Made by a program: the position numbers and the translations under genes | IMG/VR virus record: IMGVR_UViG_3300019458_000024 | Span: 98,638-162,637 of that record | DNA from: a virus | Length of the DNA: 64,000 nucleotides | Direction: 5' to 3' (one strand) | The notes under the pieces: generated by a model | Told to the model about the DNA's origin: nothing | The model's input: only the letters and a program-made list of their open reading frames with translations | Database searches by the model: none | In this document: piece after piece, positions 3,060-37,651 of the stretch | How positions within the stretch are numbered: the stretch's first letter is position 1 | Layout: the number at the start of each line of letters is the position of its first letter

Positions 3060-4559
3060 ATGATTGAATTCAAGCACAATATTGATGTCCATCCCATTCA
3101 GAAAATGGGTGGAGACCACATGGTTGTAGCAGCCGCTAGGGTGTCTACACAAGGACAGGAGGCAGAAGACTTAGTCAATATGCCGGCTGATGAGCAATTT
3201 GGGTTGATCAATTATCTGATGAAGTTTCGCCACGGCACCCCTTTTGAACACAGTGCAATGACATTTTTCGTTAACGCACCAATTTTCGTTTGGCGAGAGT
3301 GGCATCGTCACAGGATTGGTTTTTGTATTGACGGCGAGACCAAGATTTGGACGCAAAGCTACGCAGCAAACTCAGGTTTAACTGTCAGAAAACAAAGCAT
3401 CAAAGAGTTGTATAACAACTGGCATAACGGTGTTATAGATTCCATAGGTAGAGTTAGATATTTGGCATCTGTTAAAGCTCAAAAGTTACGGTGCCTGAAT
3501 GAAGAAACAAAATTGTTCGAAGCAGCCTCGGCATTAGATATATTGTCCACTGGACAGAAGGAAGGTTTTTTACTAGAAACTGATCACGCTAAACACAACA
3601 ATCTTATTGCGTCAAAAGATCATAGAATTCTAACTGTTGACGGTTGGGCAACTATTAGTGATTTGCGTGGCGGCGAATTAATTTATGTGAATGGAAAAAG
3701 AAGTGCCCATGTTGGTGAACCAAAAATGCCTCCAGCGCTTCGTGCAGGCATAGGTGTTTGGACCTCTATGATGCGGCGAGATTTGATCAAAAAAGTTGAC
3801 CGTTGTTATATTTGTAACGATCAATTTAACGCGGAAGAGTTGGTTTTAGATCACGTAATTCCTGTAGTAAGTGATTTGACCAAAGCCTTGGATGTTAGAA
3901 ATTTACAACCATGCTGTGTCAATTGCCACCAACGAAAATCGGATAGCGAGCAGAAATTTGCTACTCGTGACATTAGAGCAGGTGCCGTACTGTCACGAGT
4001 AGCACGAAAGCCCATTGCAGTTGGACCTCGTGATATGTATGACGTAGTTATGCCAGATCCGTGGCATAACTTTGTTGCAAACGGAATAGTAGTGCACAAT
4101 TCGTATAATGAGGAGAGCGCAAGATATACACAGTTGAAGCCGGTGTTTTATATTCCACATCGTGAACGAGAAATGATGAAAGTAGACGGTTGGAAACCTG
4201 GTCGTCCAAAATTTGTCCGGTGTGAAGACAAATCTGTATATACCCAATTGTATTTCAATCTCGCGCATTCCTATACGGCTTCTTACGAAGCATATCAACG
4301 CAACCTTGCCCTTGGTATAGACCCAGGTTTGGCTCGCGATTGTTTACCTGTTGGTATTTATTCTAGTTGTTGGGTCACTTGCAATCCGCGTTCTCTGATG
4401 TCTTTCCTGTCTTTAAGAATTCATAACGAAGATGCGAAGTATGTTTCATACCCACTGTATGAGATTGAAATGGCTGCTAAAACTTGTGAGAAAATGTTCG
4501 AACAAGGTTGGCCACTTACTTATAAAGCATTTATTGAGAATGGTAGAGTCGGCCCGTGA
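3060..4559 (+). CDS. thyX: flavin-dependent thymidylate synthase ThyX, interrupted by an intein
   Basis: ThyX makes dTMP from dUMP using FAD, NAD(P)H and methylene-tetrahydrofolate. The 499-residue precursor contains about 240 residues of ThyX extein: an N-terminal region ending WHRHRIGF and a continuation SYNEESARY, which rejoin to the ThyX signature RHRxxSxNExSxRY. A 259-residue intein separates them. The C-terminal part (NPRSLMSFLSLR) fits the family. The gene lies three bases after the CobT-like gene and overlaps the uracil-DNA glycosylase gene by four bases. Together with that enzyme it suggests active management of thymine and uracil in phage DNA. Activity depends on splicing because the substrate-binding motif is split. 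Confidence 0.93.
   Translation: MIEFKHNIDVHPIQKMGGDHMVVAAARVSTQGQEAEDLVNMPADEQFGLINYLMKFRHGTPFEHSAMTFFVNAPIFVWREWHRHRIGFCIDGETKIWTQSYAANSGLTVRKQSIKELYNNWHNGVIDSIGRVRYLASVKAQKLRCLNEETKLFEAASALDILSTGQKEGFLLETDHAKHNNLIASKDHRILTVDGWATISDLRGGELIYVNGKRSAHVGEPKMPPALRAGIGVWTSMMRRDLIKKVDRCYICNDQFNAEELVLDHVIPVVSDLTKALDVRNLQPCCVNCHQRKSDSEQKFATRDIRAGAVLSRVARKPIAVGPRDMYDVVMPDPWHNFVANGIVVHNSYNEESARYTQLKPVFYIPHREREMMKVDGWKPGRPKFVRCEDKSVYTQLYFNLAHSYTASYEAYQRNLALGIDPGLARDCLPVGIYSSCWVTCNPRSLMSFLSLRIHNEDAKYVSYPLYEIEMAAKTCEKMFEQGWPLTYKAFIENGRVGP
3324..4100 (+). mobile_element. intein with HNH endonuclease domain, inserted in ThyX
   Basis: The intein runs from Cys (TGT 3324) through His-Asn (4095-4100), followed by Ser+1 of the extein, giving 259 residues. 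The N-terminal splicing block begins CIDGETKIW; block B is seen as SKDHRILT; the C-terminal block reads NFVANGIVVHN. A central HNH nuclease domain is visible: CYIC, then LVLDHVIPV, then CCVNCHQRK. This fits a homing intein. HNH rather than LAGLIDADG distinguishes it from the other three inteins in this window. Insertion inside the RHR signature is a typical highly conserved target. Confidence 0.92.
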
Positions 4560-5230
4560 GTGTATTACAAAAACTACCACCACCTGATGATCATGACCTT
4601 GGTCCGCTTCGCTACTTTCCTGAAGTGCAAGAAATGGTTGACTTGCATAAGGAGGCACAAGGCTGTCAAGCGTGCCCTCTTAGCCAGACCAGAAAGAACG
4701 TTGTGTGGGGCAAGGGACGAGTTGTCAGACCTTTGGTTTGTTTTGTTGGTGAGGCGCCTGGAGCTGATGAGGATGAACAGGCCCTGCCATTTGTAGGTGC
4801 GTCAGGTCGTAAACTTGATCAGTGGATTGAGTGGATGGGTCTAGGATCCAAGTCTGAGGGTACAGCCTACGACCAAGTATATATCATGAACACTGTGATG
4901 TGCCGTCCGCCCAAGAATCGGAATCCATACCCGGACGAAATAGCTTGTTGCAGTCACTACTTCTGGTCCCAGTTGAAAATTATCAAGCCGTCACACATCG
5001 TTGTTCTTGGAAAGATTGCGACTTTGACAGTGCTAGATCTTGGTTGGGATGGAGAAACTATTCGAGATCTTAGAGGAAAGTGGCATCATCATCCTATTGC
5101 ACCTGTCCGAGTCACATACCATCCGGCCTATATCAAACGCAACCCGCCTGCTGAAAATTTGGTGTTGGAGGATCTAAAAGCCGTTAGAGAATCAATAGAT
5201 AGATACACACAGTCATGTAATAATAAGTAA
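4556..5230 (+). CDS. family 4 uracil-DNA glycosylase (Fe-S type)
   Basis: This 224-residue protein removes uracil from DNA. The motif-1 sequence GEAPGADEDEQ and the late TYHPAYIKRNP motif are those of family 4/5 glycosylases, and the four cysteines needed for a 4Fe-4S cluster can be seen (CQAC near residue 37; MCRPPKNRNP with a following Cys). The GTG start overlaps the ThyX stop codon, indicating coupling. A uracil-removing enzyme next to thymidylate synthase suggests the phage excludes dUMP from its DNA, or works on host DNA. Some phage homologues are annotated as phage SPO1 DNA polymerase-related proteins, because this domain is also fused to that polymerase. Confidence 0.9.
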   Translation: MSVLQKLPPPDDHDLGPLRYFPEVQEMVDLHKEAQGCQACPLSQTRKNVVWGKGRVVRPLVCFVGEAPGADEDEQALPFVGASGRKLDQWIEWMGLGSKSEGTAYDQVYIMNTVMCRPPKNRNPYPDEIACCSHYFWSQLKIIKPSHIVVLGKIATLTVLDLGWDGETIRDLRGKWHHHPIAPVRVTYHPAYIKRNPPAENLVLEDLKAVRESIDRYTQSCNNK

Positions 5231-5241
5231 TGAGGCTTATC

Positions 5242-5409
5242 ATGGGAGCACGAGTTGAAATTCAACTTGCTGACGGCAACTGGTACCCTGGTGTGATCAA
5301 ACATGCTGCACATACCTACTCAGCTCCGTTGTGGTTTATAAAATTGGATGATGGAAGGGAAGCTATTTGTTGTAGTGAAAAGTGTGTGCGAAAAATTAGT
5401 GTAGAATGA
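5242..5409 (+). CDS. small SH3/Tudor-like protein
   Basis: This is a 55-residue protein. Its pattern of a basic start, then DGNWYPGVIKH, then a second beta-rich segment with LDDGRE, resembles small SH3/Tudor-like barrels that recognise proteins or nucleic acid; I infer the fold from pattern only. ATG 5242 has a Shine-Dalgarno sequence (gagg) six bases upstream; an in-frame ATG at 5230 overlapping the previous stop would add four residues. The final codons overlap the conserved 17-nt element at 5399-5415, so the element is partly coding here. Confidence 0.6.
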   Translation: MGARVEIQLADGNWYPGVIKHAAHTYSAPLWFIKLDDGREAICCSEKCVRKISVE

Positions 5410-5415
5410 CCTTAT
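5399..5415 (+). promoter_or_regulatory. conserved start-proximal element, copy 2
   Basis: GTGTAGAATGACCTTAT is identical to copy 1 over 17 bases. It overlaps the end of the small SH3-like gene and lies 18 bases before the next ATG (5434). Unlike copies 1, 3 and 4, a Shine-Dalgarno sequence (aagga) sits between the element and the start codon, so the element is unlikely to act simply as a substitute ribosome-binding site. Confidence 0.7.
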
Positions 5416-5433
5416 AGTAAGGAGCAACTTTTT

Positions 5434-6129
5434 ATGACTATGAAAATGATGAGTGATTTTGTAATTGAACCCTGTGTTTTGGTCCGTGACCGCATTACCT
5501 TGGATAGGGGAGTTTCGTATTATCGTAGAGATGTCCAAGTTGTAGGTAATGAGGACGGCTCTGAAGATGCCACGTGGCATACTGAACGGCACTATAAGGA
5601 CCGTACAGAGTCTAAGGATGCCGAGCGTATCTATGCCAAAGTTCGCCAAAATATCCGTCAAGTTTGTCTTTCGACGGATATTGGTTTTATCTGCCCAATT
5701 GCTAAGAAAGATGATTTGGAGAAAGTAATTCAATCATCTCGCGAACTTGTAGACGAATTTAATCTTAACGCTAAGTATTGTAAGGTTAATTTTTTGGTAG
5801 TTTGCACTAATATCGATCCCAATAATCAAGACGGGGTTACGCTGCTTAGGAACACTCTAGAAAAGAGTGTTGATACTATTAGAACTTCATTGGCAAATTT
5901 TGATGTTACGGCAGCCAGATCTGCTGTTAATGCTACTAAAAAAATGATTGATGTTATGGCTGACCCTGGCGCAAAGGACGTGCTTGCGCATACCAGAGAT
6001 GAGGTCAGTACTTTGTGCAAAGAAGTAGCTAAATTGGTAAAACAGTTTGATGGCAACATTCAAAATGCTATTGTCTCTACAAATGGTCAAGAACTTCTGA
6101 AGCGCGCCAATGCCATCTGGAACTTTTAG
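5434..6129 (+). CDS. hypothetical protein ending in NAIWNF
   Basis: This 231-residue protein is not one I recognise. It has an N-terminal beta-rich part, then a long predicted helical part (about 130-220) rich in Ala, Lys, Glu and Val. It follows the conserved 17-nt element and a clear Shine-Dalgarno (aaggag). Its C-terminus, KRANAIWNF, is nearly the same as that of the next protein, KRKNAIWNF, although the two are otherwise unrelated to the eye. A shared C-terminal hexapeptide suggests a docking tag for a common partner. Confidence 0.7.
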   Translation: MTMKMMSDFVIEPCVLVRDRITLDRGVSYYRRDVQVVGNEDGSEDATWHTERHYKDRTESKDAERIYAKVRQNIRQVCLSTDIGFICPIAKKDDLEKVIQSSRELVDEFNLNAKYCKVNFLVVCTNIDPNNQDGVTLLRNTLEKSVDTIRTSLANFDVTAARSAVNATKKMIDVMADPGAKDVLAHTRDEVSTLCKEVAKLVKQFDGNIQNAIVSTNGQELLKRANAIWNF

Positions 6130-33303: not shown

Positions 33304-33314
33304 AGAATTTTTTA

Positions 33315-33346
33315 TTCTTGAACAATTAAAAACTATTGTGCAAGAA
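33315..33346. repeat. inverted repeat between virion and DUF2283-like genes
   Basis: TTCTTGAACAAT (33315-33326) is complementary to ATTGTGCAAGAA (33335-33346) with one mismatch across an eight-base AT loop. No T-run follows on the plus strand. It could be an operator, an mRNA hairpin upstream of the next start, or a weak terminator. Confidence 0.45.
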
Positions 33347-33356
33347 TACGGGTCCT

Positions 33357-33689
33357 ATGATCAGAGTGAAAATTCCAGTAGAACTTGAAATTACCTACGA
33401 CCCGGAAGTGGATATGTGCAATATCTATTTCACACCTCCTGAAAAATGGCCTGTATTTGAAAAGAATAAAGGCTGGGATGACGCTGTGCCTTGTATTACT
33501 CGTACCGGCAGAACCTTTGCCGTCTGTGACTTCAGGAGAGAGGCACTTGTAGGTATTGAAGTATTTGGTTTTCGTAGACTGCCTCGTGAAATTAAAAGTT
33601 ATCTCTATAATAACAACTACTTACTTGAATCTAATATGGACGCTTTGGAAAATTTGACGACAAAGAATAAAAAGATTGTTGACGAGTAA
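33357..33689 (+). CDS. DUF2283-like protein
   Basis: The 110-residue protein (ATG 33357) has the pattern of DUF2283: an early strand with YDPEVDMCNIYFTPP and a final AVCDFRREALVGIEVFG. Family function is unknown. It lies directly before the structured gap and the Rsr gene. Confidence 0.65.
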   Translation: MIRVKIPVELEITYDPEVDMCNIYFTPPEKWPVFEKNKGWDDAVPCITRTGRTFAVCDFRREALVGIEVFGFRRLPREIKSYLYNNNYLLESNMDALENLTTKNKKIVDE

Positions 33690-33714
33690 AACAGATTCCT
33701 GTAGTGTCTTTTTC

Positions 33715-33785
33715 AGACAGTAGTGAAGAGGTCGGTTACTTCATATGGTTGAAACTCCCCGCTCTCATTAGTTCTCTGTCTTTTT
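33715..33785 (+). ncRNA. candidate Y-RNA-like hairpin upstream of the TROVE/Rsr gene
   Basis: AGACAG (33715-33720) pairs with CTGTCT (33776-33781), and TAGTGAAGAG (33721-33730) with CTCTCATTA (33762-33770), leaving a bulged A on the 5' strand and a five-base bulge (GTTCT) on the 3' strand. A large loop of about 31 bases closes the hairpin, and five T residues (33781-33785) follow. Y RNAs bound by Ro60/Rsr proteins share this plan: paired ends with a bulged helix and a 3' U run, and in Deinococcus the Y RNA gene sits upstream of rsr. This is inferred from structure and location; no sequence homology is claimed. The hairpin may equally serve as a terminator. Confidence 0.5.
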
Positions 33786-33798
33786 ACAATTTATGTTT

Positions 33799-33896
33799 TC
33801 CGGAAGTGAGATGTTCGGTTACTTCTTACTTGAATTGAGAGAAGGTGGGAGCTTTTGCTCTCCATCTAAAACTACCCGAATACAGTATTCTCCGGA
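33799..33896 (+). ncRNA. second structured element upstream of Rsr (branched)
   Basis: TCCGGA at 33799-33804 can pair with TCCGGA at 33891-33896, enclosing several hairpins: CTTCT/AGAAG (33822-33826 with 33840-33844), a strong stem GGGAGC/GCTCTCC around a TTTT loop (33847-33863), and GAATA/TATTC (33878-33890). An 11-base sequence TCGGTTACTTC occurs here (33815-33825) and in the first hairpin (33732-33742). The branched arrangement recalls the tRNA-like module of YrlA RNAs, but the resemblance is only architectural. Confidence 0.4.
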
Positions 33897-33924
33897 TCTT
33901 TTCTAATAAAAAGGGGTAATTAGA

Positions 33925-35523
33925 ATGGCAACGCCGAATAAAAAGAAAGTCTCCAAGACCGAAACTACGAAGCATTTGAATTGGATGGGAGGTGCTTCAT
34001 ACTTCTCTAGTAATCCAGTTCAATCCCTTAGATTGATTGCCTCTAGTTGTTTTTTTGGAGAGCCTCAATATTATCATAAAGATTCATCTGTAGTAGGTTC
34101 GCGCCTTACAGAGCGACAATTGACAAGTTTGCGTGAGAGGCTTAATGCACTGGACCCCCAAGAGTGGAGAAGTAAGTCTCCTCAAGAATGTATGATTAAC
34201 GCTATTGATGATGCGTTAAATCATAGTGTTGAGCAAACACTGCAGGAGGCTGTTCGTCTTCGTCAAGAAGACAATATTCGCACCACACCCCAAGTTATCC
34301 TTGTACGTGCTGCCCACCACAAAAATGCAAAAGGTACGGGACTAGTTGGAAAATACGGTAAGGATATTGTGATTCGTACTGACGAACCTTCCGTTGGATT
34401 GGCCTATCATATTGAAACATATGGAAAAGATGCGCCCATTCCCAACAGCTTGAAGAAGGTGTGGGCACGCTATTTGGAAAAGAGGTCTGAAAAGGACCTC
34501 GCTAAATACAAGATGGATACTCGTGGTGTGAAGACTGTTGATGTGGTCAACCTAGTTCATCCCAAGAGAACGCCGGCTATACACAAGCTTGTTAGAGGTG
34601 AACTTAAACTTGAGGCTAGTACTTGGGAATCTTTGATTTCCTCAAACGGTTCTAATTGTAATACTTGGACGCAAGCTGTTGACATTATGGGTCATATGGC
34701 ACTTTTGCGCAATGTTAGGAATTTACTAGACAATAAAGTCGAGCAAAGATTGTTTTTGTCTAAACTTGTAGACGGTGCAAAGACAGGTAAGCAACTTCCG
34801 TTTCGATACTATTCCGCATTTAGAGCTATTCCCGATGCGCCCGGCACGGTCAAAGATGCTATTGAACAGTGTATGGAAATCACTATGGAAAATGTTCCTA
34901 ACTTTTCCGGACGTGTAATGTCCCTATGCGATAATAGCGGCTCCGCTCAGGGAACTACTACTTCTTCTATGGGAACTATGAAAGTTTCTACTATAGCTAA
35001 TCTCACTGGTTGCATTGTCGGTGCTAAGGCAGACGAGGGTTATGTAGGAGTGTTTGGTGATCGTCTAGATGTTATGAGCATTCGCAAAAAGTCTTCTATT
35101 TTTGACAATTTGGAAAAGGCAGAAACACTTGCTGAGCGCGTAGGTCAAGAAACTGAAAATGGTATTTGGTTATTCTGGGATAAGGCTATTCGTGAGAAAG
35201 AGCATTGGGATCATGTGTTTGTTTTTTCCGACCTGCAGGCTGGACACGGTGGCCTATACGGTATAAACGCACAGTCTTACAAAGACTACGCGTGGGATAA
35301 TGGAAGACACATTGATGTTTCTAAACTCATCAATGCCTATAGGTCTAAAGTCAACCCACTTGTTAACGTGTATTTGGTACAAGTTGCGGGCTATAAAGAT
35401 ACTATTCTTCCTGAGTTCTACGATAGAACTTTCATTCTCAGTGGATGGGGTGAGGGTGTACTGAAGTTCGCGGGTCAAATGACCAGTGTTATGAACCAAG
35501 TTTCACAGAAAAAAGCTGTTTGA
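33925..35523 (+). CDS. rsr: TROVE-domain Ro60 orthologue (Rsr) with VWA domain
   Basis: The 532-residue protein matches prokaryotic Ro60: an N-terminal TROVE HEAT-repeat ring (LNWMGGASYFSSNPVQSLRL, then QVILVRAAHHKNAKGTG, DVVNLVHPKRTPAIHKLV, MALLRNVRNLL) and a C-terminal VWA domain with the MIDAS motif DNSGS at residues 336-340. Ro60/Rsr rings bind misfolded RNAs in the central channel and Y RNAs on the outer face, and in bacteria associate with exonucleases. Here the gene stands after a 235-base structured gap. Phage copies may protect phage RNA or redirect host RNA decay. Shine-Dalgarno gggg precedes ATG. Confidence 0.93.
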   Translation: MATPNKKKVSKTETTKHLNWMGGASYFSSNPVQSLRLIASSCFFGEPQYYHKDSSVVGSRLTERQLTSLRERLNALDPQEWRSKSPQECMINAIDDALNHSVEQTLQEAVRLRQEDNIRTTPQVILVRAAHHKNAKGTGLVGKYGKDIVIRTDEPSVGLAYHIETYGKDAPIPNSLKKVWARYLEKRSEKDLAKYKMDTRGVKTVDVVNLVHPKRTPAIHKLVRGELKLEASTWESLISSNGSNCNTWTQAVDIMGHMALLRNVRNLLDNKVEQRLFLSKLVDGAKTGKQLPFRYYSAFRAIPDAPGTVKDAIEQCMEITMENVPNFSGRVMSLCDNSGSAQGTTTSSMGTMKVSTIANLTGCIVGAKADEGYVGVFGDRLDVMSIRKKSSIFDNLEKAETLAERVGQETENGIWLFWDKAIREKEHWDHVFVFSDLQAGHGGLYGINAQSYKDYAWDNGRHIDVSKLINAYRSKVNPLVNVYLVQVAGYKDTILPEFYDRTFILSGWGEGVLKFAGQMTSVMNQVSQKKAV

Positions 35524-35526
35524 CTA

Positions 35527-35877
35527 ATGGATGATGATAAGATCTACATAGAGTGTAGTTGCAGCTCTAAAGATCATGTTATTTGTGTATCTTTGTGCAC
35601 CTGGGAATGGAAAGGTGTTAAGGAAACTGATCTTTCTATAGACACACAAATGCGACCATGGCAAAGTTTTCTAAACAGAGTCAGAACTGCATTTAAATAC
35701 ATTTTTAGTTCAACCCCATGTAAATATGGGTATTGGAACAACACAATCCTGTCAATCGAAGACGCAAAACGCATTGCTGGGTTGTGTAATAGATGCATTT
35801 CCATGCGTACTGAAGAATTAAAACAAATTGAATACAAAGCAAAGCAAACAGCATTGCAAAAGGAATCCTGTGTTTGA
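35527..35877 (+). CDS. hypothetical protein downstream of Rsr
   Basis: This 116-residue protein begins with a Cys-rich beta segment (KIYIECSCSSKDHVICVSLC) followed by a helical segment (WQSFLNRVRTAFKYIFSS) and ends with CNRC. Similar small proteins are common in phage accessory regions, but their function is not known. It follows Rsr by three bases and may be co-expressed. Confidence 0.55.
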   Translation: MDDDKIYIECSCSSKDHVICVSLCTWEWKGVKETDLSIDTQMRPWQSFLNRVRTAFKYIFSSTPCKYGYWNNTILSIEDAKRIAGLCNRCISMRTEELKQIEYKAKQTALQKESCV

Positions 35878-36208
35878 ATGTGTTTTGAGTGAGGACGAAT
35901 GGGCAAATTTACGATGTAAGAATTGTGGAGTGGAGTTTACCGTAGATGCTTGTTTTGAAGAAAATTTAGTCTTCTGTATTAATGCCAAAAGATTGAAACC
36001 TCGTTGTCCTAGTTGTGGTATTACAGAAGCTTTGTTACAAATTGAAACTCCTCCGATGCCGGAATTTCCTTTAACAGAGCCATTAGAGGTCACCGAACAC
36101 GACGGACCAGTCAAGATTACAGGTAAATTTGAAGATAGAAATGAAGGACTCTACTACAACGACGAGTCTACTGTTTGGGGCAATTATAAGAAAAGATCAA
36201 AGAACTAA
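35870..36208 (+). CDS. zinc-ribbon protein
   Basis: The 112-residue protein starts at GTG 35870 (Shine-Dalgarno agga six bases upstream), overlapping the previous gene. CKNC (about residues 16-19) and CPSC (about 47-50) form a zinc ribbon; the rest is acidic and Pro-rich. It overlaps the next tiny gene by one base. Function unknown. Confidence 0.55.
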   Translation: MFECVLSEDEWANLRCKNCGVEFTVDACFEENLVFCINAKRLKPRCPSCGITEALLQIETPPMPEFPLTEPLEVTEHDGPVKITGKFEDRNEGLYYNDESTVWGNYKKRSKN

Positions 36209-36297
36209 TGAGCAAGTTCGTAATCATCGATCCTCCAGAACTGAGAACGGCAATAGAACTTCTTAGTCGTATTGATGAAAAGGATTGGGGATCTTAG
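36208..36297 (+). CDS. very short ORF (29 residues)
   Basis: An ATG overlapping the previous TAA opens a 29-codon frame (MSKFVIIDPPELRTAIELLS then a short tail). It overlaps the next gene's start and could be a coupling leader peptide. Supported only by its position. Confidence 0.3.
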   Translation: MSKFVIIDPPELRTAIELLSRIDEKDWGS

Positions 36298-36658
36298 ACC
36301 TGATATGCGGTTAAAGAAAAACAGTAGTAATTACCACGCGTCTAGCCTAAAAGTTAAGGATGCGAGAAATGACAAATCTTTTGACGGAGCTACTGGAGGC
36401 GCAAAAAAGAAAAAGAATACCAAAAAATGGTGTTTAGGCATTGAAGGTAGGCACCACGTACCTATATGGACAGAAGCTGTTAAATTACGCGGGTGTAGCG
36501 GTATATTAAGAACAAGACCACCTATTATGCAAGTTTCTTGTGAGAATTGTGATAAGGTTTTTGAAACAGATTTCGGATTTTGGGGTCGTCCCAAACTCGG
36601 CAGAGATGTACTGTTGGAAAAATGGCGAAAGAAACTAGGAATCGATAAAGATAAGTGA
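36275..36658 (+). CDS. basic zinc-binding protein
   Basis: The 127-residue protein is Lys-rich at the N-terminus (GAKKKKNTKK) and has a C-terminal cysteine pair (SCENCDKVFETDFGFWGRPK). The CENC segment resembles the zinc ribbon of the gene two upstream. The start is uncertain (ATG 36275, with a later in-frame ATG at 36305). It may bind RNA or DNA. It is followed four bases later by the release-factor gene. Confidence 0.5.
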   Translation: MKRIGDLRPDMRLKKNSSNYHASSLKVKDARNDKSFDGATGGAKKKKNTKKWCLGIEGRHHVPIWTEAVKLRGCSGILRTRPPIMQVSCENCDKVFETDFGFWGRPKLGRDVLLEKWRKKLGIDKDK

Positions 36659-36662
36659 AAAT

Positions 36663-37329
36663 ATGTCTATCATTGTAGAAGTAAGAGCCGGCGAAGGTGG
36701 CACAGATGCTAAACTACTGGTAAAAGACCAGTTTGTGATTTACTCGAAGATGGGAGCCCGGAGGGGTCTTTGAGGTTGAATTACTAGATGACAGACCAGG
36801 GTTGCTTATCTTCAAAGTGACTGGTAAAACAGCCGCTGAAGCGTTTAAAAATGAACCAGGCGGTCATAGAGTTCAAAGAATTCCACCCACTGAACGGAGT
36901 GGAAGGGTGCATACATCAACAATAACTGTATGCGTCTTACCTGAACCCACAGAAACTCAAATTAAACTAGATGATCAAGATCTAGAGTGGCAGTTTTGTA
37001 GGGGCTCAGGAGCAGGTGGTCAAAATCGTAACAAACGGTCAACTGCCGTACAGCTAACCTATAAACCTACCGGCTTAATGGTGCGTTGTGAGTCTGAGCG
37101 GGCTCAGGATGCTAATAGGCGCGGAGCTTTGTCTATTCTTAGGGCAAAGCTTTGGGAGGCTAAAAACAGCGCTAACGCTGCTACAAGGGCGTTTGACCGC
37201 AAGTCTCAAATAGGGTCAGGACAACGTGCTGATAAGATTAGAACTATAAGATACCAGGATGGAGTGGTTACGGACCATAGATTGAACAAACGTTGGAATC
37301 TTAAGGATTATTTGCGTGGGAATTTCTAA
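36663..37329 (+). CDS. short RF1-type peptide chain release factor with programmed +1 frameshift
   Basis: The first 36 codons (MSIIVEVRAGEGGTDAKLLV...) end at TGA 36771; after +1 slippage at CTT 36768-36770 reading continues with GAG 36772 to give about 221 residues. The joined product matches domains 2-4 of class I release factors: HRVQRIPPTE, with PPT (residues 74-76) at the RF1 PxT codon-recognition position; GSGAGGQ with the catalytic GGQ (118-120); and an RF1-like end, RTIRYQDGVVTDHRLN. Domain 1 of normal RFs is missing, as in short release or rescue factors such as PrfH. The shift site copies the layout of E. coli prfB (SD-like, spacer, CTT TGA). Confidence 0.88.
36760..36773 (+). promoter_or_regulatory. 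prfB-like programmed +1 ribosomal frameshift site
   Basis: The coding order is CGG AGG GGT CTT TGA G: a Shine-Dalgarno-like GGAGG(GG) separated by three bases from CTT TGA, as in prfB (AGG GGG TAT CTT TGA C). Slow UGA termination would favour the +1 shift. The base after the stop is G rather than C. Confidence 0.85.
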
Positions 37330-37537
37330 CACTCATCCTATGTACGTGAATGTATGTAATTATTGAATCTTCGATATTAAGTTCTTGAAGAACCATACGT
37401 AAAGCTTGATTAGCAGTATACGAAGATTCCACAACTTCAATATCTCTTTCAATATCTCTAAGGTAGTCGTTTGACGCTTCTGGACTTGGTAACCATTTGA
37501 CAGCAACACACCAATCTGATTTCTCTACTTTCTTCAT
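37301..37537 (-). CDS. minus-strand hypothetical protein under the conserved element
   Basis: This 78-residue acidic protein (MKKVEKSDWCVAVKWLPSPE, helical middle, IITYIHVHRM) is the only convincing minus-strand gene. Support comes from the perfect match of the 17-nt element directly upstream of its ATG. It converges with and overlaps the release-factor gene by 29 bases, so the two transcripts could interfere. No family recognised. Confidence 0.7.
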   Translation of the reverse strand: MKKVEKSDWCVAVKWLPSPEASNDYLRDIERDIEVVESSYTANQALRMVLQELNIEDSIITYIHVHRMSVRNSHANNP

Positions 37538-37541
37538 GCTT

Positions 37542-37558
37542 ATTAGGTCATTCTACAC
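37542..37558 (-). promoter_or_regulatory. conserved start-proximal element, copy 4 (minus strand)
   Basis: Reading on the minus strand from 37558, GTGTAGAATGACCTAAT is identical to the copy before the CobS-like gene. It lies four bases before ATG 37537 with no Shine-Dalgarno between. The rest of the divergent gap (37559-37651) shows no clear sigma70 promoter. Confidence 0.75.
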
Positions 37559-37651
37559 TGCCTTTACATGTAACAAATAAAGTCTCTTGTCGTGGAAAGT
37601 ACGATGAATCTTTAGCTTGACTTACGCGCGCCTACAGCAGAAACTTGGTAG

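Follow-up and report, generated by a model that had tools for sequence, protein, structure and literature searches.

The locus described here raises the question of whether a phage encodes, next to a Ro60 (Rsr) protein, Y-like RNAs of its own. The window, i.e., the whole stretch of DNA analyzed, is 64,000 nucleotides long and covers bases 98638 to 162637 of a 162,637-base virus record; positions given below are those of the window. An initial annotation had described a TROVE-VWA gene preceded by a 235-base gap and had placed in this gap two Y-RNA-like elements (33715 to 33785 and 33799 to 33896) sharing the sequence TCGGTTACTTC; a release-factor-like gene 1.1 kb further on had suggested an RNA-repair or ribosome-rescue island. 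The gap was confirmed as a noncoding interval between two open reading frames (33690 to 33924).

The gene following the gap (rsr; 33925 to 35523, plus strand) encodes a protein of 532 residues with a TROVE domain and a VWA-type domain carrying D336-x-S338-x-S340. The product matched the TROVE family PF05731 (E value, 3.4e-7) and PHROG 850 (phrog_850, RNA-binding protein; E value, 1.1e-32). AlphaFold was used to predict the structure from an alignment of 22 rows, and the resulting model had a mean pLDDT of 83.4 and a pTM of 0.82. When the predicted fold was compared with the PDB by Foldseek, all 13 matches with E values of ≤0.001 were Ro60/TROVE structures, including the human and Thermus phage phiLo Ro60 proteins and the Rsr of Deinococcus. 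In the VWA-type domain, all 22 rows have the same DNSGS motif. The predicted protein thus unites the TROVE domain, the VWA-type domain with DxSxS, and the Ro60-like fold, and because of these domain, fold, and motif results the gene is assigned as a phage Ro60 orthologue, a predicted member of a ring-shaped RNA-handling protein family. A survey (PMC7824862) reports TROVE proteins from a small subset of jumbo phages. When the Rsr sequence alone was used to query viral_contigs, nothing was retrieved; a three-row Rsr alignment used as the query yielded 64 viral loci, and an alignment search also yielded 64 bacterial rsr loci.

The gap contains two candidate Y-like RNAs, both on the plus strand. 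RNA 1, a short form (33714 to 33782; covariance model score, 36.8 bits; E value, 1.4e-7), is predicted to comprise an outer helix (33715-33720/33776-33781), the conserved 5' loop UAGUGAA (33721 to 33727), an inner helix formed by GAGGUCGG (33728 to 33735) and CCGCUCUC (33759 to 33766) with one U.C mismatch, the sequence UUACUUC (33736 to 33742), and the 3' linker AUUAGUUCU (33767 to 33775). The minimum free energy structure of isolated RNA 1 favors pairs somewhat different from those of the family structure. RNA 2, a medium form with one hairpin (33797 to 33898; 45.6 bits; E value, 5.5e-10), has a predicted outer helix (33799-33803/33892-33896), the 5' loop AAGUGAGA (33804 to 33811), an inner helix of UGUUCGG (33812 to 33818) and CCGAAUA (33876 to 33882), UUACUUC (33819 to 33825), the hairpin at about 33843 to 33867, and the 3' linker CAGUAUUCU (33883 to 33891). 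The limits first annotated differ from the outer helices by no more than a few bases, and the shared sequence is present exactly, with one copy per element (33732 to 33742 and 33815 to 33825). As judged from the sequence, the gap holds two copies of one predicted RNA element. Members of the family generally consist of an outer helix whose sequence is free, a conserved asymmetric internal loop (consensus, 5' GHWGYRR and 3' ..UUCU-C), an inner helix, UUACUUC, and a variable part; the unpaired GHWGYRR loop, UUACUUC, and UUCU are among its most conserved parts. The short form of the window, UUACUUCAUAUGGUUGAAACUCCCCG, is very similar to the one in the myxobacterium Paraliomyxa. Comparison of folding energies with those of shuffled sequences gave ambiguous z-scores, i.e., -0.61 for the whole gap, -1.45 for the first element, and -3.29 for the second, so that energy alone was insufficient and the comparison with relatives was decisive.

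The window contains the spaced 5' core GHWGYRR-N6-8-GWTACTTC at two sites, both inside the gap. In 200 dinucleotide-shuffled versions of the window, with both strands counted, the mean was 0.045 occurrences and two were never reached, and the elements are therefore considered real. In many rsr loci, the motif recurs upstream at a nearly fixed distance behind GHWGYRR. The strict core was found 118 times in 183,134 bases upstream of rsr versus 35 times in 901,731 other bases of the same strand and 2 times in 1,084,865 bases of the opposite strand of rsr loci; the loci lacking rsr contained a single copy in 2,130,090 bases, counting both strands. The core was present upstream in 68 of 131 rsr loci; these occurrences are not independent events, as the loci are related to one another and near copies were counted.

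A covariance model (R1), whose E values are rough, was trained on 18 elements, all of them from rsr loci of genomes other than that of the window. Searching the 64-kb window with R1 at an E value of ≤10 returned exactly two matches, 33797 to 33898 and 33714 to 33782, and the full 162,637-base record added a single weak one (E value, 0.11). No match at an E value of ≤10 was obtained from 78 related phage loci in which rsr had not been detected (1,065,045 bases). At an E value of ≤0.1, R1 produced 129 matches in 100 rsr loci (the two of the window included), 128 of which had the orientation of rsr, and 111 were located no more than 1500 bases upstream. Matches at this level were present in 52 of 54 viral rsr loci with ten near copies left out, and in 41 of 43 when the training loci were removed as well; in the two unmatched viral loci, the rsr match begins at base 281 in one and at base 8 in the other. 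What began as a guess from the letters has thereby become a defined RNA family accompanying nearly every sampled phage Rsr of the clade. Among the bacterial rsr loci, 29 of 43 and 7 of 21 were matched at an E value of ≤0.1 (36 of 64), one of the 29 (L163) solely by a weak match on the opposite strand, and 14 of 43 and 14 of 21 showed no R1 match. For distant phage rsr genes (about 25% identity), R1 detected elements upstream of L220 (34.3 bits) and upstream of L222, L214, and L216 (22.8 to 23.9 bits), each with an E value of 0.0025 or better; six of the ten distant loci (L215, L217, L218, L219, L221, and L223) gave nothing better than 0.2. Nitratidesulfovibrio phage SRB7757 has an Rsr with 36% identity, and no Y RNA was recognizable in 9.5 kb of its DNA. 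The elements of the window can be recognized because matching ones lie near related genes in many phages and bacteria.

The initial annotation had expected its candidate RNAs to show compensatory changes in related phages, and such changes are seen. In the 123 distinct matches, 83.1% of the cells pair versus 52.8% after shuffling, 594 cells are changed on both sides versus 222, and the covariation score is 0.771 versus 0.218 for shuffled and 0.08 to 0.24 for slid alignments. The numbers of pairs and pair types were not clearly above those of shuffles (13 versus 13.0 and 58 versus 55.9, respectively), all pair counts being derived from an alignment that was fitted to the structure and includes related rows and training elements. 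On this evidence, a conserved stem with an internal loop appears to be maintained by compensatory change. A free two-helix parser was rejected as too permissive, as 44% and 7% of random positions equalled the two window elements, and was replaced by a core-anchored parser whose score includes a bonus for UUCU. With the latter, the median score was 39.5 for true halves versus 26 for 5' halves combined with downstream DNA of other elements, and 105 of 125 elements exceeded the 95% level of the mismatched-half controls.

The RNA loop was also compared with the phylogeny of Rsr, using a quick tree of 100 proteins in which 42 rows lack a core recognized by the regular expression and long branches, above all that of phage SRB7757, are unsure. 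On this tree, the AGUGA-type (GT) loop, present in 18 rows, requires 2 changes versus 16.8 after shuffling, indicating that loop type co-segregates with Rsr clade. The Rsr protein of the window clusters with those of two phages (L082 and L135) and a Chloroflexota protein (support, 91), near Myxococcota.

The variable part ranges in relatives from about 20 bases up to a permuted tRNA. In L087 and L082 it comprises a T-arm, a closed acceptor hairpin, and a D-arm, and 27 of 77 core-element loci (near copies included) have a T-arm motif behind the core; neither a T-arm nor a D-arm motif was found in the window gap. Circular permutation of a tRNA by a bacterial Y RNA (PDB 6CU1) has been described (PMC11472068). 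Rfam searches of the window, its gap, and the gap of Bacillus phage G gave no meaningful match. Specifically, the YrlA model (RF02553) did not match the window at its gathering score, was not among the Rfam matches with E values of ≤10 in 33650 to 33960, and matched nowhere in the whole record at an E value of ≤1; the 69-bit gathering score was reached in none of the 15 rsr loci scanned. The family thus goes uncalled at threshold by Rfam models in the window, or as YrlA in the loci of 15 relatives. Nevertheless, the YrlA model has a similar order of lower helix, internal loop, and upper helix, and the long family member L087 aligns with it via T-arm, acceptor hairpin, and D-arm (26.5 bits with a cut-off of 69; E value, 0.0012 for 411 bases). 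YrlA matches below the cut-off were also obtained in 13 of 14 control genomes; the score is therefore weak, and the link rests more on the arm sequences. The Y-stem of YrlA aligns poorly, and the window RNAs differ from YrlA in having neither a tRNA-like domain nor a match to the model.

Rfam tRNA matches of 127 to 144 bases were observed at L146 3736-3862, L155 3639-3768, L118 8131-8262, and L217 (crAss001) 5465-5608. In these four, a Y-type stem with GTTACTTC occupies the anticodon-arm position and the acceptor is open, i.e., the opposite circular permutation to the closed-acceptor form; in crAss001, the motif was seen by eye, without an R1 match. Another stretch of L118 (5963-6072) was considered as a full permuted tRNA form and rejected, as it has a T-arm-like hairpin without acceptor hairpin or D-arm. 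As a separate observation, L105 263-904 contains a ROOL RNA (277 bits) and six tRNA matches, and five core elements lie downstream of rsr in this locus.

Comparison with other systems places the window RNAs more precisely. Bacillus phage G has an Rsr (gp540) 37.6% identical to that of the window and RNAs of the same family: its gap before rsr contains a run of elements with GTTACTTC and outer helices closing them, and R1 matched six times in the 9.6 kb fetched, four of these in the gap directly upstream of rsr. The phage G RNAs differ in copy number, which is higher, in their GCGG-type loop, and in at least one T-arm motif. Thermus phage phiLo likewise has a Ro60 (PDB 9l5y; ranks 2 and 3 among the structural matches), but its identity in the structural alignment is 18 to 20%, and the phiLo locus gave no R1 match at an E value of ≤5. 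Vertebrate Y RNAs share a lower-stem Ro60 site with unpaired bases, which is described as a 7-bp helix with one bulged C and a 3-nt bulge opposite (PMC4726728), whereas the window RNAs have 5 to 6 bp and an internal loop of 7-8/9 nt. Rfam found no vertebrate Y RNA (RF00019) in the window elements, which also lack the 7-bp/bulged-C site. For Listeria phage CKA15, the authors of PMC12282133 propose abundant noncoding RNAs near the Rsr-like CKA15_055 as possible Y RNAs and report this protein from purified particles. We took gp165 of Listeria phage P100 (L225 21571-23091) as its counterpart by size and place; it is a DUF2828/DUF7788 protein, not PF05731. Three stretches of P100, which leave about 28 kb outside, yielded no R1 match better than 0.5, the best having an E value of 0.53 in 55 kb, and the Listeria phage was rejected as an expression surrogate.

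Taken together, the predicted Y-RNA-like form stands with respect to the bacterial and phage Y RNA family and fails with respect to a vertebrate-type Y hairpin or an Rfam YrlA match; of the covariance searches, those with the Rfam Y and YrlA models that the initial annotation had suggested found nothing, and the model from other rsr loci found both elements. The literature examined on Y RNAs, Ro60, and phage G describes neither this locus nor the GHWGYRR/UUACUUC consensus, which Chen et al. 2014 (RNA 20:1715) may contain, and the RNAs are therefore counted as additions to a known kind. Judged by sequence, the window elements join the bacterial/phage Y RNAs already known, below the YrlA threshold of Rfam. 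They are encoded near a Ro60/rsr gene, as is characteristic of Y RNAs, and the core claim, a Ro60 gene with two Y-like RNAs, is strongly supported by the comparisons. As a whole, the locus very probably specifies a Ro60 (Rsr) ring together with its two cognate Y-like RNAs.

In an alternative reading, which we consider unlikely, the hairpins are Rsr-binding sites in the leader of the rsr mRNA that serve autoregulation and are not free RNAs. The match of RNA 2 ends only 26 bases before the rsr start codon, and many relatives have their elements no more than 500 bases upstream of the gene, as expected for a leader; however, 7 of the 129 matches are located downstream of rsr (e.g., those of L105 at 193 and 822 bases past the gene and those of L118 at 328 and 2,555 bases), 10 of 129 are more than 1.5 kb upstream, one locus has six matches, and tRNA-like arms are common among the relatives. 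A much poorer explanation is that the elements terminate transcription or serve as hairpins for mRNA processing, with no protein partner: a T run directly follows RNA 1, but a scan found no promoter-like or terminator-like site around the gap, the unpaired GHWGYRR, UUACUUC, and UUCU are among the most conserved bases, and the element is absent from related loci without rsr. Chance folding of an AT-rich gap, with which the z-score of the whole gap would agree, is refuted by the R1 matches in the window and the empty control loci, and the shuffles also speak against it.

For a Ro60 ring with free cognate RNAs, the following mode of action appears most likely. The two elements would be transcribed as separate RNAs, each folding into an outer helix, an asymmetric internal loop, and an inner helix that continues into UUACUUC. 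As in the Ro60 RNPs already characterized, Rsr would bind the stem and loop, and the rest of the RNA (the short loop of RNA 1 and the hairpin of RNA 2) may gate RNA access to the ring or tether a partner, e.g., a nuclease. The RNA would then shield or gate the Rsr ring, and an arm, where present, may tether a partner. In Deinococcus, a Y RNA tethers Rsr to PNPase (PMC4726728, PMC7790460). The complex could act in RNA decay or quality control during infection, presumably with a benefit for the phage. With short, hairpin, and tRNA-like forms in one family, the Ro60-binding and effector parts could be separated, and since the exact RNAs and the exact bases to mutate are at hand, the use of a Ro60-Y RNA machine by phages becomes testable.

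The block containing rsr, its RNAs, small genes of unknown function, and the release factor gene (33304 to 37651, plus strand; 4,348 bases) is flanked by two virion-type genes. In four close capsid relatives, the same interval measures 6, 94, 130, and 1,501 bases and has no rsr match, so the cassette is likely an insertion. None of the 78 capsid-relative loci has rsr in the stretch fetched, many of these stretches being short. A DNA-level relative of the block was not found in the phages collection, and PADLOC gave no match for four proteins. The cassette is perhaps expressed late. A more far-reaching reading, which we regard as rather doubtful, is that the Y RNAs of this lineage shed a tRNA-like effector arm, kept the Ro60-binding stem, and act mainly as lids or assembly scaffolds, and that the Ro60-Y RNP is produced late and travels in the virion as cargo for the next host; late synthesis and virion cargo are suggested by the position of the cassette between virion genes.

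The release-factor gene is real (36663 to 37329) and starts about 1.1 kb beyond rsr. Its frame opens with ATG at 36663 and is interrupted by TGA in CTT TGA G (36768), preceded by GGAGGGG; reading in +1 at 36768 restores the PCRF domain. We take this interruption to resemble the programmed frameshift site of RF2 (prfB). The protein, which has PPT and GGQ, aligns from position 105 of 347 only and scored 237.3 and 229.4 bits with RF1 models (cut-offs of 400 and 423.25, not reached), 137.6 bits with prfB, and 60.5 bits with prfH (cut-off of 166.65, not reached). It is thus predicted to be RF1-like, though below the cut-offs of all models, and the ribosome-rescue factor PrfH was rejected, as the best scores are those of the RF1 models, far above prfH. 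RtcB (PF01139) had no match in the 162,637-base record, which may be incomplete, and none of the three proteins encoded between rsr and the release-factor gene received a repair assignment. An RNA-repair operon (rsr-yrl-rtcBA) or ribosome-rescue island, as initially suggested, was therefore rejected, given the lack of RtcB and the RF1-like release factor. Among 223 loci, a relative of the release factor near rsr was found only in L108 and its near copy L109. In L108, a release factor with 39% identity lies at 5319 to 5975, about 0.6 kb downstream of rsr (match at 3200 to 4738), and its frame contains two in-frame stops in table 11, possibly reflecting stop-codon recoding.
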